NCBI RefSeq assembly: GCF_008086175.1
Contig: NZ_VSKM01000003.1
Span: 1 to 64,000 of the forward strand
Source: Bizionia saleffrena
GTDB taxonomy: Bacteria; Bacteroidota; Bacteroidia; Flavobacteriales; Flavobacteriaceae
Direction of reading: 5' to 3'
Length of the DNA stretch: 64,000 bases
Notes under the pieces: generated by a model
What the model was told of the DNA's origin: nothing
The model's database searches: none
Seen by the model: only the letters and a program-made list of their open reading frames with translations
Part shown: piece after piece, positions 10,101 to 40,610 of the stretch
Layout: each line of letters opens with the position of its first letter
Numbering within the stretch: the first letter of the stretch is position 1
Made by a program: the position numbers and the translations under genes

Positions 10101-10934
10101 ATGGCAATTATTACTTTAACAACAGACTTTGGAGAGAAAGATCACTCTTCTGGCGCGGTAAAGGGAGCTATTTATAGTGAATTACGTGACGTTACGGTTG
10201 TTGATATCTCTCATTCTGTGGCACCATTTAGCATTCCGGAAGCCGCTTATATTATTCAAAGTGCGTACAGTAGTTTTCCTAAAGGAACCATACATATTAT
10301 TGGTATTGATTCTGAGCTTAATATTGAAAATAAGCATATTGCCGTCAAGCTAGACGGCCATTATTTTATTTGTGCTAATAACGGAATTATGAGTATGATT
10401 TGTGCCGAAATAGCGCCCGAACAAATTGTAGAAATTAATATTCATGATCGTATAGAATCGAGCTTTCCAGTGTTAGATGTTTTTGTAAAAGTAGCCTGCC
10501 ATATCGCTCGCGGTGGCACGTTGGACGTGATAGGGAAACGGATAGAACAGATTAAACCCATTACCGAAATTAAGCCACATGTTAACGAAGAGCAATCGCA
10601 AATTATTGGAAGTATTATCTATATCGATAATTACGGAAATGTGATTAGTAATATTAAACAATCGTTTTTTGAAGCGATACAAAAAGGGCGCCCGTTTATT
10701 ATTTCGGCAAGAAACCATAAACTGAAAGCAATACATTCTAAATACAGTGATATTATTAATTTTGATACGCCAGAAAGTGAAAGAAATGATGAAGGCCGTG
10801 CACTAGTTGTTTTTAACTCGTCCAGCTATTTAGAAATTGCCATTTATAAAAGTAACACCGTAACCGTAGGTGGAGCAAGCACCTTAATGGGCTTAAAATT
10901 AAGAGACACCGTAACTGTAAATTTTATTGAATAA
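10101..10934 (+). CDS. SAM hydrolase / SAM-dependent halogenase family protein (DUF62)
   Basis: The product has 277 residues. The opening ITLTTDFGEKDHSSGAVKG with the conserved Asp, VVDISHSVAPFSIPEAAYII, and HYFICANNGIMSMI are the signatures of the DUF62 family. Characterised members hydrolyse S-adenosylmethionine to adenosine and methionine, while a few halogenate it; the common hydrolase role is far more likely. The C-terminal domain (IIYIDNYGNVISNI, then the final beta barrel) is complete. The ATG at 10101 begins the conserved beta strand. The next gene starts 3 bases after the stop, so the two are surely co-transcribed. Confidence 0.9.
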   Translation: MAIITLTTDFGEKDHSSGAVKGAIYSELRDVTVVDISHSVAPFSIPEAAYIIQSAYSSFPKGTIHIIGIDSELNIENKHIAVKLDGHYFICANNGIMSMICAEIAPEQIVEINIHDRIESSFPVLDVFVKVACHIARGGTLDVIGKRIEQIKPITEIKPHVNEEQSQIIGSIIYIDNYGNVISNIKQSFFEAIQKGRPFIISARNHKLKAIHSKYSDIINFDTPESERNDEGRALVVFNSSSYLEIAIYKSNTVTVGGASTLMGLKLRDTVTVNFIE

Positions 10935-10937
10935 CAA

Positions 10938-11246
10938 ATGATAACAACCGACTTAGTACGCATTGTAAAATTAACGTTCGCCGAAGAAAATATTCCTTTA
11001 TTTTTATCTAATTTCGAACTTGTAAAACAGCGCATTCGCAATTTTGAAGGCTGTAATTTCTTAGAGCTTTACCGCGATAAAAACAATACAAATATCTTTT
11101 TTACGTATAGTTATTGGTCTACTGAAGCCGATTTAGAAAATTACCGGCACTCCGCACTTTTTAAAAGTGTTTGGGCAGAAACCAAGCCTTTGTTTTGCGA
11201 CAAACCAGAAGCTTGGAGCGTAAACAAATTAGCGTCTTTAAAGTAA
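10938..11246 (+). CDS. Antibiotic biosynthesis monooxygenase (ABM)-domain protein
   Basis: The product has 102 residues, one ferredoxin-like ABM domain. The typical pattern is present: VRIVKLTFAEENIPLFL at the first strand and helix, GCNFLELYRDKNN, FTYSYWSTEADLENYRHS, and a terminal helix. ABM proteins include quinol monooxygenases and heme-degrading enzymes; I see no residue set that fixes which, so the substrate stays open. It follows the SAM hydrolase gene by 3 bases, and a GC-rich hairpin follows its stop, before the gldFG fusion. Confidence 0.82.
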   Translation: MITTDLVRIVKLTFAEENIPLFLSNFELVKQRIRNFEGCNFLELYRDKNNTNIFFTYSYWSTEADLENYRHSALFKSVWAETKPLFCDKPEAWSVNKLASLK

Positions 11247-11311: not shown

Positions 11312-13708
11312 ATGTTTGCCATATTAAAAAAAGAAATACAATCCTTTTTTGCATCGCCAATTGGGTATTTAGTCATTGCTATTTTCTTGTTGTTAAATGG
11401 TCTGTTTTTATGGCTTTTTAAAGGCGAGTTTAATATTTTAAAATATGGTTTTGCCGATCTGAATTCGTTTTTTTTATTAGCACCTTGGATTCTTGTATTT
11501 CTAATTCCTGCTGTAACGATGCGCAGTTTTAGCGATGAGAAAAAACAAGGAACTTTAGAGCTTTTACTCACCAAACCCATTAGTCATTTACACATTGTAC
11601 TCGGTAAATACTTTGGTGCAATCGTACTTATTCTATTAGCATTACTACCAACACTACTCTACGTCGTTACCATTTATCAATTAGGTAACCCTATTGGAAA
11701 TTTAGATATAGGAAGCACTTTAGGCTCATATTTCGGGTTGTTATTTTTAATCGCGGCGTACACCGCAATCGGTGTTTTTGCTTCGACATTAAGCGATAAC
11801 CAGATCGTCGCTTTTATTAGCGCTGTTTTTTTATGCTTCTTTTTTTATGTGGGTTTTGAAGGTATTGCCGAGGTTACTTCGAGTCGTTTTATAGAACAGT
11901 TGGGAATGAGTTCGCATTATAAAAGTATGAGCCGTGGCGTTTTAGACACCCGCGATATCATCTACTTTTTAAGTGTGACAGCGCTATTTTTATTCTTTAC
12001 CGTAAAACGGGTGAATAGTGAAGCTTCGAAAGCTATACAATGGGCGATAATCGCTATAGTACCTGTTGCGCTAGTGGCTCTTAACTTTTTAAGTAGTTCT
12101 GTGTATAGTCGTTTTGATTTAACTTCAGATAACCGTTACACGCTTAGCGATGCGACCTTAAATAGTGTAAAAGAAATTGATTCTCCTATTGTTATCGATG
12201 TGTTTTTAGAAGGTGAAGGATTTCCTTCGGAATTTAGACGCTTACAGTCAGAAACACGACAGATGCTAGAAGAGTTCTCGGCTTACAATAACAATATTTC
12301 ATATAATTTTTTAAATCCGATTGAAGATGAGGCGACACGCGAGCGTAACATCGAACAATTAAATGCGCGTGGGTTAACGCCCATGCAAGTAAATGTACAA
12401 GAAAATGGCAAGCAATCGCAGGCCATTATTTTCCCTTGGGCACTAGCGAGCTATAATGGTGAGACCGTAAAAATAGCATTGGTAAAATATAAAGTCAACG
12501 CCGACCAACAAGAACTGGTAACCAATTCTGTACAGCATTTAGAGTATGCTATTGCCGATGGATTAGGGAAACTAATCACTCCTAAAAAACGTAAAATCGC
12601 GGTTTTAAAAGGAAACGGAGAAATGCCAAACCAATACATTGCCGACTTTGTAACCACCTTACGCGACTATTATTTCATCGCGCCTTTTACATTGGATAGC
12701 GTCGCTGTGAGTCCGCAAAAAACAGCATCAGCCTTAAATGATTACGATTTAATTATTGCGGCAAAACCTACTGAAGCGTTTACCGAGCACGAAAAATTTG
12801 TACTAGATCAATACACCATGCATGGCGGCAAAAGTTTATGGCTAATTGATGCCATTACTATGGAAAAGGATAGTTTATTCAATCTTGAAGGTAAAAATGT
12901 GGCTATTCCTCGCGACTTGAATTTAACCGATTTCTTTTTTAAATATGGTGTACGTGTCAATCCGTTATTAACCAGTGTAAAAAGCCAAAATATTGGTCGT
13001 ATTGCTTTAGAAAGTGGTGAAAGTGAACGCTCAAAAATTCAATTATTCAATTGGCCGTATTCCCCCTTGGGAATGAGCGATACCAATCATCCTATTTCTA
13101 ATAATATTAATTTGGTAAAGTTCGACTTCGCCAATCAAATAGACACCTTAAAAAATAACATCTCTAAAACGATTCTATTAAAGTCTGACGCTCCTGCACG
13201 GTTAGAAGGTACGCCATTGGAAATAAGTTTAGCATTTGCTTTACAAGAACCCGATTCGAAACTCTTCAATAAAAAAGCTCAAAATTTGGCGGTGCTTCTA
13301 GAAGGCGAATTTACTTCGGCCTATAAAAACCGTGTAAAACCCCTTAGGCTTTCCGAAGAGAAAAACACGAGTGTGCCCACCAAAATGATTGTTATTGCCG
13401 ATGGCGATGTGATTAAGAATGACATTGACAGAAGTGGGCCGTTGAGTTTAGGTTTCGACAAATGGACCAAGGAAACCTATGGTAATAAGGAATTTCTATT
13501 AAATGCCGTAAATTACCTATTAGACGACGACGGACTTATAAACATTCGTTCTAAAGAAGTGAAAGTTGCCTTTTTAGATCAGCAAAAAATTGCCGACGAA
13601 AAAACGAAATGGCAAGTCATAAATATTCTTCTACCATTAGTATTCCTAGGTGTTTTCGGTGTTTTATTCTATTATTATAGACGTAACAAATATGCGAAAA
13701 CGGCTTAG
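11312..13708 (+). CDS. GldF-GldG single-chain fusion (gliding motility ABC transporter)
   Basis: One 798-residue frame joins two proteins that are normally separate. Residues 1 to about 233 are the GldF permease: KEIQSFFASPIGYLVI, PAVTMRSFSDEKKQGTLELL, SDNQIVAFISAVFLCFFF, and MSRGVLDTRDIIYFLS, with six membrane helices. After a short join (VKRVNSEASK) comes GldG: a membrane helix, then SRFDLTSDNRYTLSDATL, an extracytoplasmic domain to about 760 and a C-terminal helix followed by YYYRRNKYAKTA. With the ATPase GldA these form an ABC transporter required for gliding in Flavobacterium johnsoniae. No gldA is in the window. I see no frame disruption at the join. Confidence 0.9.
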   Translation: MFAILKKEIQSFFASPIGYLVIAIFLLLNGLFLWLFKGEFNILKYGFADLNSFFLLAPWILVFLIPAVTMRSFSDEKKQGTLELLLTKPISHLHIVLGKYFGAIVLILLALLPTLLYVVTIYQLGNPIGNLDIGSTLGSYFGLLFLIAAYTAIGVFASTLSDNQIVAFISAVFLCFFFYVGFEGIAEVTSSRFIEQLGMSSHYKSMSRGVLDTRDIIYFLSVTALFLFFTVKRVNSEASKAIQWAIIAIVPVALVALNFLSSSVYSRFDLTSDNRYTLSDATLNSVKEIDSPIVIDVFLEGEGFPSEFRRLQSETRQMLEEFSAYNNNISYNFLNPIEDEATRERNIEQLNARGLTPMQVNVQENGKQSQAIIFPWALASYNGETVKIALVKYKVNADQQELVTNSVQHLEYAIADGLGKLITPKKRKIAVLKGNGEMPNQYIADFVTTLRDYYFIAPFTLDSVAVSPQKTASALNDYDLIIAAKPTEAFTEHEKFVLDQYTMHGGKSLWLIDAITMEKDSLFNLEGKNVAIPRDLNLTDFFFKYGVRVNPLLTSVKSQNIGRIALESGESERSKIQLFNWPYSPLGMSDTNHPISNNINLVKFDFANQIDTLKNNISKTILLKSDAPARLEGTPLEISLAFALQEPDSKLFNKKAQNLAVLLEGEFTSAYKNRVKPLRLSEEKNTSVPTKMIVIADGDVIKNDIDRSGPLSLGFDKWTKETYGNKEFLLNAVNYLLDDDGLINIRSKEVKVAFLDQQKIADEKTKWQVINILLPLVFLGVFGVLFYYYRRNKYAKTA

Positions 13709-13920: not shown

Positions 13921-15039
13921 ATGAAATTTATAGTATCAAGTACCTATTTACTAAAACAACTCCAAGTTTTAGGTGGTGTTATTAACAGTTCGAATACCTT
14001 ACCTATATTAGACAACTTTTTATTTGACATCGACCACTCAAAATTAACGGTGTCGTCTAGTGATTTAGAAACGACAATGTCTTCTGTTTTAGATATAGAA
14101 AGTGACAGTGAGGGTAGCGTTGCTATTCCTGCGCGTTTACTTTTAGACACTTTAAAAACATTTCCAGAACAACCCTTAACGTTTGTTATTGAAGACAACA
14201 ACACCGTTGAAATTAGTTCTAATCACGGTAAATATGCTTTAGCTTACGCCGATGGCGCGGAGTTTCCGAAAGCTATTACTTTAGAAGAGCCGAGTTCAAC
14301 TACCATTGCCGGTGATATTTTAGCGACTGCCATTAGCAAAACTATTTTTGCTGCGGGTAACGACGATTTAAGACCAGTAATGAGTGGTGTATTCTTTCAG
14401 TTTTCTACAGATAACTTAACATTTGTAGCCACCGATGCCCATAAATTAGTAAAATATACACGTCAGGATGTTAGCGCATCGCAACAGGCAGAATTTATTA
14501 TGCCGAAAAAACCGTTAACTTTATTAAAAGGAATTTTAGCGGCTAGCGATGAAAATGTAACTATCGAGTACAACGAATCTAATGCAAAATTCACTTTTGA
14601 AAATACGGTATTAGTTTGTCGTTTAATTGATGGAAAATATCCAAATTACGAAGCGGTAATACCAAAAGAAAACCCGAATAAACTTAGTATCGACCGTTCT
14701 CAATTTTTAAGTTCGGTAAAACGTGTAAGTATATTTTCGAATAAAACAACACACCAAATTCGTTTAAAAATTGCTGGAGCCGAATTAAATATCTCTGCGG
14801 AAGATATTGATTATAGTAATAAAGCCGAAGAGCGTTTAACTTGCGACTACCAAGGTGATGATATGCAAATCGGGTTTAACTCTCGTTTCTTAACAGAAAT
14901 GTTAAACAACTTAAACTCAGACCAAGTACAATTAGAAATGAGTATGCCTAATAGAGCGGGAATTTTAACTCCCATTGATGGTTTAGACGAAGGCGAACAC
15001 GTAACTATGCTTGTTATGCCCGTGATGCTTAATAGCTAA
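13921..15039 (+). CDS. dnaN: DNA polymerase III beta subunit (sliding clamp)
   Basis: The product has 372 residues, the family's standard length. Three clamp domains are readable: MKFIVSSTYLLKQLQVLGGVI at the N-terminus, the middle domain with NDDLRPVMSGVFFQF and FVATDAHKLVKY, and the third ending in MLVMPVMLNS, the conserved MPM(R)-like C-terminus. The ring-shaped dimer tethers polymerase III to DNA. Here dnaN stands alone rather than beside dnaA and recF, which is common in Bacteroidetes. A strong terminator follows. Confidence 0.98.
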   Translation: MKFIVSSTYLLKQLQVLGGVINSSNTLPILDNFLFDIDHSKLTVSSSDLETTMSSVLDIESDSEGSVAIPARLLLDTLKTFPEQPLTFVIEDNNTVEISSNHGKYALAYADGAEFPKAITLEEPSSTTIAGDILATAISKTIFAAGNDDLRPVMSGVFFQFSTDNLTFVATDAHKLVKYTRQDVSASQQAEFIMPKKPLTLLKGILAASDENVTIEYNESNAKFTFENTVLVCRLIDGKYPNYEAVIPKENPNKLSIDRSQFLSSVKRVSIFSNKTTHQIRLKIAGAELNISAEDIDYSNKAEERLTCDYQGDDMQIGFNSRFLTEMLNNLNSDQVQLEMSMPNRAGILTPIDGLDEGEHVTMLVMPVMLNS

Positions 15040-37784: not shown

Positions 37785-40610
37785 TTGAAATATTTTTACA
37801 CCACACTACTCGCGTGTCTATTTTTCAGTATTACTACTATTGGTCAGAATACAATGGCTATTACTGCCGATTTGGATGTTGAAACAAAAAGCATTCATAT
37901 TGAGCAAAACATCACGTATTTTAACGATTCTAATAAAACCTTAGACACTATTTATTTAACCGATTGGAGTCATAGTTATTCAACTAAAAACACACCGTTG
38001 GCTACCCGATTTGCCGAAGAGTTTAAGAATACATTTCATTTCGCGAAAAACGAAGACCGTGGATTTACAGTATTGTCAGAAATTACAGCTGAAAACAAAG
38101 GGGTTACTTACAACCGATTAAAAAATAATCCAGATATTATTGCAGTAGCATTAAGCACACCGCTATTGCCAAATAAGGCGTACCATCTTAGTTTAAAGTA
38201 CACGCTACAGATCCCTAACGATAAATTTACGAGGTATGGCGTTACAGATACTAATGATTATAATTTAAGATTTTGGTACATAACACCCGCCGTTTTCGAT
38301 GGCGAATGGCACTACTTTAGCAATAAAGATTTAAACGATGCCTATGTACCAAAATCTAATATTACGGTGCAATTTACGTATCCAGAAGACTACACTTTAA
38401 TTTCCGAATTAAACACCGTAGAAACGACGGTTAATAACGCACAGAAAACAACACTGTTAGAAGGAGAGGCAAGAATCAATTCAAAATTATTCTTAAACAA
38501 AGCTAATACGTTTAAAACCGTAGAAACCGATTTCTTAACCATTCAGTCTAATATCGATAATGAGGGTTTAAAAGCCACCCAAATGGTTTTAGCTTCCGAT
38601 AAGGTGTCAGGTTTTATCACTAATCATTTAGGAGATTACCCACACGAGAAGCTATTACTAACGGCTATCGATTATAAAAGAGATCCTATTTACGGCCTAA
38701 ACCTATTACCAAGTTTTATCCGTCCATTTCCAGACACCTTTCAATACGAATTAAAATTACTGAAAACAGGTTTACGAAATTTTCTAGAAAACACAGTTCT
38801 TGTCAATCCCAGAGAAGAGCAATGGGTTATCGATGGGATTCAGACGTATTTATTAATAAAATATATAGACATTTATTACCCCGAAATTAAACTTACAGGC
38901 ACTTTAGGAAACATTTGGGGACTTCGCGCCTTTCACGCCGCCGATTTAAAATTTAACGACCAATACAACTTAGGCTATATTCATATGGCAAGAGCTCATT
39001 TAGACCAACCGCTTAGTATGGCTAAAGACTCCCTACTTAAGTTTAACGAAAACATTGCAAACAAATACAAAGCTGGTGCTGGATTGCGTTATTTAGACGA
39101 TTATACAAACAGCGCGCTTGGCGAAAAAGCAATTAAAGAGTTTTTTAAAGACAATGCCCTAAAGCCAACAAATGCAGAAACTTTTATTTCCTACTTAAAA
39201 GACAACACAGATAAAGATATCGATTGGTTTTACAACGATTACGTAACGACCAGCGAAAAAATAGACTTCAAAATAAAGCGCGTTAAAAAAGTAGGTGACT
39301 CCTTACGGGTAACCTTACAAAATCGCAGAGATAACGAAATGCCAGTTTCTTTATATACCCTAAAAAACGACTCCGTAATTGCCCAACAATGGATTTCTGG
39401 ATTTCGAGATAGCAAAACCATTACTATAGCAAATTCCGATGCCGATCGTTTAGCGATAAATTATAACAAAATCATACCAGAAGTTAATACTAGAAATAAT
39501 TGGAAACGCGTTAATACGTTTCTAGATAAACCTATTCAATTTCGATTATTTAAAGACATTGAAGACCCCGATTACAGTCAGATTTTCTTTATGCCAGAAT
39601 TTGCGTATAATTTTTACGACGGTTTTTCACCGGGTTTAAAACTGTATAATAAAACAGTACTCTCTAAAGATTTTCTATATAAATTTAGTCCAAAATACGC
39701 CTTTAAAAGCGACCAATTAGTGGGTAGCGCCTACTTTAGTTACGCCGATCGCAAAGAAGATAGCAATCACTATTTTACCCGCTATACCCTTCGTGGAGAA
39801 TACTACAATTATGCGCCTAACTTGTCGTACACTTCCTTTACACCGTCCGTAAGTTTTAGATTTAGAAACCCAGACGATTTACGCAAAAATAAAAAGAAAT
39901 ATCTCGATTTTAGATACGTAAATATCGATCGTGAAATCGATTTAATGGGAGAATTTAAAACGGAAGGCGAACCAAAATACAGCGTTTTTAACGCCAGCTA
40001 TACCGAGGTGAATCCTAATTTAAAAAACTACAGTTCTTGGAATACTGATTTACAAATCGCGCAAAATTTCGGTAAATTATCGACCACTTTAGAATTTAGA
40101 ACCCTTACCGAAAACAATCGCCAATACAATCTGCGTGCCTATTTTGGTACCTTTATTTACAATAAAACGTATCAAGACACCAATTTCTTTAGTTTTGCCC
40201 TAGACCGCCCAACAGATTACCTCTTCGACTACGATTATTTAGGGCGTACAGAAGAAGCCGGCATATTAAGTCAGCAATTAATAATTGCCGAAGGTGGTTT
40301 CAAATCACAATTAGAGACGCCATTTGCAAACCAATGGATTTCTACCGTAAATACCAGCACCACGATTTGGCGTTACATTATGGCTTACGGCGATGTCGGT
40401 GTCTTAAAAAATCACGATACGAGCCCTAAGTTTGTTTACGACAGTGGTATCCGTTTAAATTTAGTCGAAAATTATTTCGAATTGTACTTCCCTATTTACT
40501 CTAATAAAGGCTGGGAAATTGCACAACCAGAGTACGATAAAAGTATCCGTTTTATCGTTACACTATCGCCCAACACACTCTTAAAACTGTTCACTAGACG
40601 CTGGTATTAA
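37785..40610 (+). CDS. M1 peptidase-like domain without HExxH, joined to outer-membrane barrel
   Basis: The product has 941 residues. The start appears to be TTG at 37785, since it opens directly into a signal peptide (KYFYTTLLACLFFSITTIGQ). Residues about 22-470 resemble an M1 aminopeptidase (beta-sandwich, then helical region), but the expected HExxH is KTGLR, and the second Glu in WVIDGIQTYL is Asp, so zinc binding and catalysis should be lost. From about 560 the sequence is amphipathic beta strands with aromatic ends, finishing in LKLFTRRWY, typical of an outer-membrane barrel. Function is unknown; a structural or binding role is inferred. Confidence 0.8.
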   Translation: MKYFYTTLLACLFFSITTIGQNTMAITADLDVETKSIHIEQNITYFNDSNKTLDTIYLTDWSHSYSTKNTPLATRFAEEFKNTFHFAKNEDRGFTVLSEITAENKGVTYNRLKNNPDIIAVALSTPLLPNKAYHLSLKYTLQIPNDKFTRYGVTDTNDYNLRFWYITPAVFDGEWHYFSNKDLNDAYVPKSNITVQFTYPEDYTLISELNTVETTVNNAQKTTLLEGEARINSKLFLNKANTFKTVETDFLTIQSNIDNEGLKATQMVLASDKVSGFITNHLGDYPHEKLLLTAIDYKRDPIYGLNLLPSFIRPFPDTFQYELKLLKTGLRNFLENTVLVNPREEQWVIDGIQTYLLIKYIDIYYPEIKLTGTLGNIWGLRAFHAADLKFNDQYNLGYIHMARAHLDQPLSMAKDSLLKFNENIANKYKAGAGLRYLDDYTNSALGEKAIKEFFKDNALKPTNAETFISYLKDNTDKDIDWFYNDYVTTSEKIDFKIKRVKKVGDSLRVTLQNRRDNEMPVSLYTLKNDSVIAQQWISGFRDSKTITIANSDADRLAINYNKIIPEVNTRNNWKRVNTFLDKPIQFRLFKDIEDPDYSQIFFMPEFAYNFYDGFSPGLKLYNKTVLSKDFLYKFSPKYAFKSDQLVGSAYFSYADRKEDSNHYFTRYTLRGEYYNYAPNLSYTSFTPSVSFRFRNPDDLRKNKKKYLDFRYVNIDREIDLMGEFKTEGEPKYSVFNASYTEVNPNLKNYSSWNTDLQIAQNFGKLSTTLEFRTLTENNRQYNLRAYFGTFIYNKTYQDTNFFSFALDRPTDYLFDYDYLGRTEEAGILSQQLIIAEGGFKSQLETPFANQWISTVNTSTTIWRYIMAYGDVGVLKNHDTSPKFVYDSGIRLNLVENYFELYFPIYSNKGWEIAQPEYDKSIRFIVTLSPNTLLKLFTRRWY

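Follow-up and report, generated by a model that had tools for sequence, protein, structure and literature searches.

The DNA analysed (the window) comprises the first 64,000 nucleotides of contig NZ_VSKM01000003.1 of Bizionia saleffrena. It contains a single coding sequence, gldFG, at 11312..13708 (+), which extends from ATG to TAG and encodes 798 amino acids; ORF analysis detected no stop codon within the 798 codons. Residues 1-236 matched the NCBIfam profile of GldF (TIGR03518; 360.6 bits against a cut-off of 288.5, profile positions 1-239 of 240) and residues 248-795 matched that of GldG (TIGR03521; 731.1 bits against a cut-off of 389.85, profile positions 5-552 of 552). Pfam was concordant, with ABC2_membrane_2 followed by DUF7088 (residues 273-379) and ABC_transp_aux (residues 426-732). 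The GldF-GldG fusion in B. saleffrena is confirmed as real, and the claims of an earlier note on this DNA, that both proteins form one 798-residue product and are joined through a short linker, hold in a single reading frame.

Three parts can be distinguished within the gene. The GldF part (residues 1-236; 11312..12019, +) is an ABC-2 type permease, based on a PF12679 match of 50 bits (cut-off 27.2) and six predicted membrane helices within residues 1-235, and has a NosY-like fold. The junction linker (residues 237-247; 12020..12052, +) is the gap between the two NCBIfam matches; it coincides with a loop in the structure model, has a near-constant length among relatives and is predicted to be cytosolic. 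The GldG part (residues 248-795; 12053..13696, +) consists of a membrane helix, periplasmic GIFT-type (IFT52-like) and auxiliary domains, and a C-terminal membrane helix.

The upstream neighbours of gldFG encode an S-adenosylmethionine hydrolase-like protein (10101..10934, +; NF053629, E 1.2e-24, below the cut-off) and a small protein with a weak match of the heme-oxygenase/monooxygenase type (10938..11246, +; NF009840, E 3.4e-5, below the cut-off), and dnaN lies downstream (13921..15039, +; TIGR00663, 275.4 bits, cut-off 137.65). The ORF list of another locus, L108, also has an S-adenosylmethionine hydrolase-like gene 5' of gldF. Elsewhere in the window, a 941-residue ORF at 37785-40610 (+) had no NCBIfam match at E 0.001. 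The fused gene gave the only GldG match in the 3.28 Mb, 99.5%-complete genome, with no second copy. GldA is encoded at a separate locus on another contig (C22:56992-57879; 454.1 bits against a cut-off of 402.6), and its ATPase motifs are intact (L122), comprising Walker A (GPNGAGKS), the signature (LSKGFRQR) and Walker B. GldJ (925 bits) and GldD (233 bits) are also present in the genome.

Distribution of fused and separate layouts

Bizionia paragorgiae DSM 23842 (G093, L101; NZ_FNQK01000005.1:94915-97308) has an uninterrupted fused frame with 90% identity, and the same frame was present without interruption in all 30 of the best genome matches (L002-L031) and in most named relatives. The search of close relatives that the earlier note had suggested recovered the same fusion, and its view that a clean frame makes an error unlikely was borne out. 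Named relatives with the fusion include Lacinutrix, Formosa, Wocania, Seonamhaeicola and Xanthomarina as well as Hanstruepera, Mangrovimonas, Algibacter lectus, Snuella and Aquimarina. In a survey of the family, 340 of 397 genomes had a match and, among the matches listed, at least ~74 of these 340, from at least 49 genera, carried a fused and unbroken gene, the ~74 being a lower bound from a hand count of those listed rows that were full-length and had no internal stop. A single terminal stop was disregarded in this count where the ORF bore this out or where the open frame was of sufficient length, and the ORF-level check covers all but about a dozen of the genomes counted. Fused frames were also found in other families of the same order and of the same class. 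At the ORF level, a chosen set of 258 loci comprised 145 fused, 111 split and two partial ones, proportions that give no frequency estimate. The fusion is a common variant and is not peculiar to the B. saleffrena genome, contrary to its presentation in the earlier note as unusual. No published description of a GldF-GldG fusion was found in a search that covered the open literature; the fusion is not claimed as unreported, and gldFG belongs to a known type of transporter whose fused form is widespread. One locus from a distant family of the phylum (L267) encodes a fused GldF-GldG-like frame of 784 residues with 71 residues between anchors, and this fusion is probably independent in origin.

On a tree of 164 GldF and GldG pairs, the fused label changed 27 times, compared with 55 times in shuffles, and at least 19 of the 27 changes were forced by well-supported branches. 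This tree was obtained by a quick search (LG+G4) and has some long branches, so that the exact number of changes is approximate, and the direction of each change is not readable from these counts. Among tandem gldF/gldG pairs, 26 of 56 were in the same frame, and the start of gldG was often 0-3 nt past the gldF stop. Where the two genes share a frame and the stop and start adjoin, one stop-codon substitution is sufficient to fuse or split them. Two same-frame loci were observed in which the genes adjoin at the stop: in L037:2177-4591 (+) the junction is taa-atg, with the gldG start directly after the stop, and in L130:532-2934 (-) the stop is followed by TTG, the only nearby gldG start. Stop-codon readthrough could give a fused product in these two as well.

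A third layout, gldF-X-gldG, was present in many close relatives, including Aestuariibaculum, Confluentibacter, Mariniflexile, Flavivirga and some Algibacter. Gene X encodes a protein of 161-174 residues whose N-terminal half is hydrophobic; its C-terminal region has a sub-threshold match to BamE (E 0.011). The gene lies at L108:4717-5202 (+) and at equivalent sites in L102, L104-L106, L108-L121 and others. In 11 of 28 gldF-X-gldG rows the overlap between X and the 3' end of gldF is exactly 4 nt, and in the other rows X starts 0-4 nt past the stop; as the spacing varies over the 28 rows, no single fixed layout is claimed. The 3' end of X overlaps the likely start of gldG. Open frames of ~953 amino acids had been considered as a larger fusion, a candidate that was rejected when ORF analysis resolved each into three separate genes, gldF, X and gldG. 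Strong matches to X were obtained in all 11 gldF-X-gldG genomes tested. X was not found in the B. saleffrena genome, and four of 19 fused genomes tested had weak matches elsewhere, which are possibly paralogues, with none in the others.

The GldG sequences reject a single gldF-X-gldG clade (log-likelihood difference 349). A single origin of this layout was suggested by the GldF-only tree (p-AU 0.591) and was set aside when the signal faded on removal of the junction-side tail (p-AU 0.073, 11 changes). Layouts also differ within one genus code: L019 (G213) is fused and L165 (G374) is gldF-X-gldG, both under g213, and L140 (G341) is fused and L209 (G164) is tandem, both under g164. Within this family, the fusion is one of several interchangeable gene layouts, with function probably unchanged. 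A bolder reading, speculative and in our view unlikely, is that the junction between GldF and GldG serves as a switch point in evolution, having been repeatedly fused, split by a stop or made to hold a two-helix BamE-like membrane protein (X), with the linker and X being alternative ways to set or regulate GldF-GldG contact that are swapped by recombination among related species.

Junction, topology and proposed assembly

Hydropathy analysis of the gldFG product identified eight membrane stretches, with overlapping ones at 160-189 counted as one. The AlphaFold model, a monomer of moderate confidence (mean pLDDT 76, pTM 0.68), contains six GldF helices, the last of which spans residues 213-235. 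Residues 236-243 form a loop, residues 244-261 the GldG helix that follows it, and a further helix lies at the C terminus. With helices in even numbers, the join falls on the cytosolic side, so that the two proteins can be fused without a change of topology. A PDB sequence search gave no significant match. In a Foldseek search, the GldF part matched NosY chains, with E values as low as 1.4e-4 and target TM scores of up to 0.75, and also PmtD. For the soluble part of GldG, the best PDB match was the GIFT domain of IFT52 (E 6.4e-7, target TM 0.69), with a further match of this part to an oligosaccharyltransferase subunit. GldG had been described in the earlier note as substrate-binding-like; the soluble domain instead resembles the IFT52/GIFT fold, and no substrate-binding protein family was found among the Pfam and NCBIfam matches apart from the name of TIGR03521 itself.

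The junction, measured from anchor to anchor, was 61 residues in 40 of 46 fused relatives of B. saleffrena's clade (SD 0.6), and the length was more variable in fused proteins outside that clade (SD 3.3). This constancy fits either one fusion in the clade with later exchange by recombination or a strong constraint on length.

Taken together, gldFG is very likely to encode the membrane part of the GldA/GldF/GldG transporter, with the GldF permease and the GIFT-domain GldG as one chain. The assembly, fixed F:G stoichiometry, topology and function given here are those that we infer. The six GldF helices would finish on the cytosolic side, where a loop of ~8 residues would join GldF to the GldG membrane helix; this helix would cross outward to the periplasmic GIFT-type domain, which would be anchored by the second helix. 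NosY and PmtD function as dimers. If GldF dimerises as NosY does, two GldFG chains and two GldA would form an A2(FG)2 complex, with an F:G ratio of 1:1 built in by the covalent join. GldF and GldG of F. johnsoniae are described as needed for membrane localisation of GldA and for gliding (PMC9127263 citing Hunnicutt 2002).

Alternative readings and gliding

An assembly or sequencing error that merged two genes would also give one open frame, and in its favour some relatives have a single stop codon between the genes. This explanation is effectively refuted by the same open frame in 145 loci, many of them from independent assemblies, including one from the same genus at 90% identity. The single chain is predicted from the reading frame, and processing of the fused product or internal GTG initiation is possible: proteolysis of the linker, or a start near the junction, would yield two proteins in the cell from a fused frame in the DNA. 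In-frame GTG codons occur at residues 222, 234, 255, 264 and 297, of which 234, 255 and 264 are near the junction, and GldG often starts with TTG in split relatives. However, there is no in-frame ATG between residues 206 and 318, which makes a separately started GldG unlikely, and a near-constant linker is expected of a maintained join. We consider two separate proteins very unlikely and favour a single GldFG chain.

The same single chain might be decayed or unrelated to gliding, as a transporter with another role in a non-gliding genus. Gliding is reported to be absent in Bizionia arctica (PMC12943765), and Algorimicrobium (formerly Bizionia algoritergicola) was not observed to glide despite a complete T9SS gene set (PMC12843772); both carry the fusion. 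However, the fusion is also carried by Formosa maritima and Xanthomarina gelatinilytica, for which gliding has been reported (PMC12943765), and failure to glide in the laboratory is a weak argument. The frame and conserved residues are maintained across 42 aligned fused proteins, and the presence of GldA, GldJ and GldD in the genome likewise argues against decay or another role, which we regard as rather unlikely. With both gliders and non-gliders among its carriers, the fusion is compatible with gliding but not predictive of it, and any effect of the fusion on gliding is conjectural.

That such fusions occur naturally shows that cells tolerate GldF and GldG in a single chain, in support of a direct 1:1 contact between them, and gldFG offers structural studies a single-chain construct that already exists. 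Automated gene counts for gldF and gldG will misread genomes with the fusion. As the fusion is common, the B. saleffrena case alone adds little.

Comparison with known systems

The gldFG gene shares its families (TIGR03518 and TIGR03521) and gene order with GldF and GldG of F. johnsoniae (Fjoh_2722 and Fjoh_2721), and GldA is encoded elsewhere; F. johnsoniae has two genes whereas B. saleffrena has one. The statement in the earlier note that studied Flavobacterium have two adjacent genes agrees with F. johnsoniae (PMC9127263) and with F. psychrophilum, in which the order is gldF, gldG and then dnaN (PMC5682007). In B. saleffrena, dnaN is likewise located 3' of gldFG. The fused GldFG proteins of Lacinutrix, Xanthomarina, Seonamhaeicola, Mangrovimonas and Aquimarina, among others, are the same uninterrupted protein of ~795 residues with the same junction, at 54-90% identity. 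NosFY(D) and PmtCD share the fold of the GldF permease part with negligible sequence similarity, and we know of no GldG-like domain attached to either. The N-terminal (GIFT) domain of IFT52 shares the fold of the GldG soluble domain at about 13% identity; unlike GldG, IFT52 is a eukaryotic ciliary protein without membrane helices.
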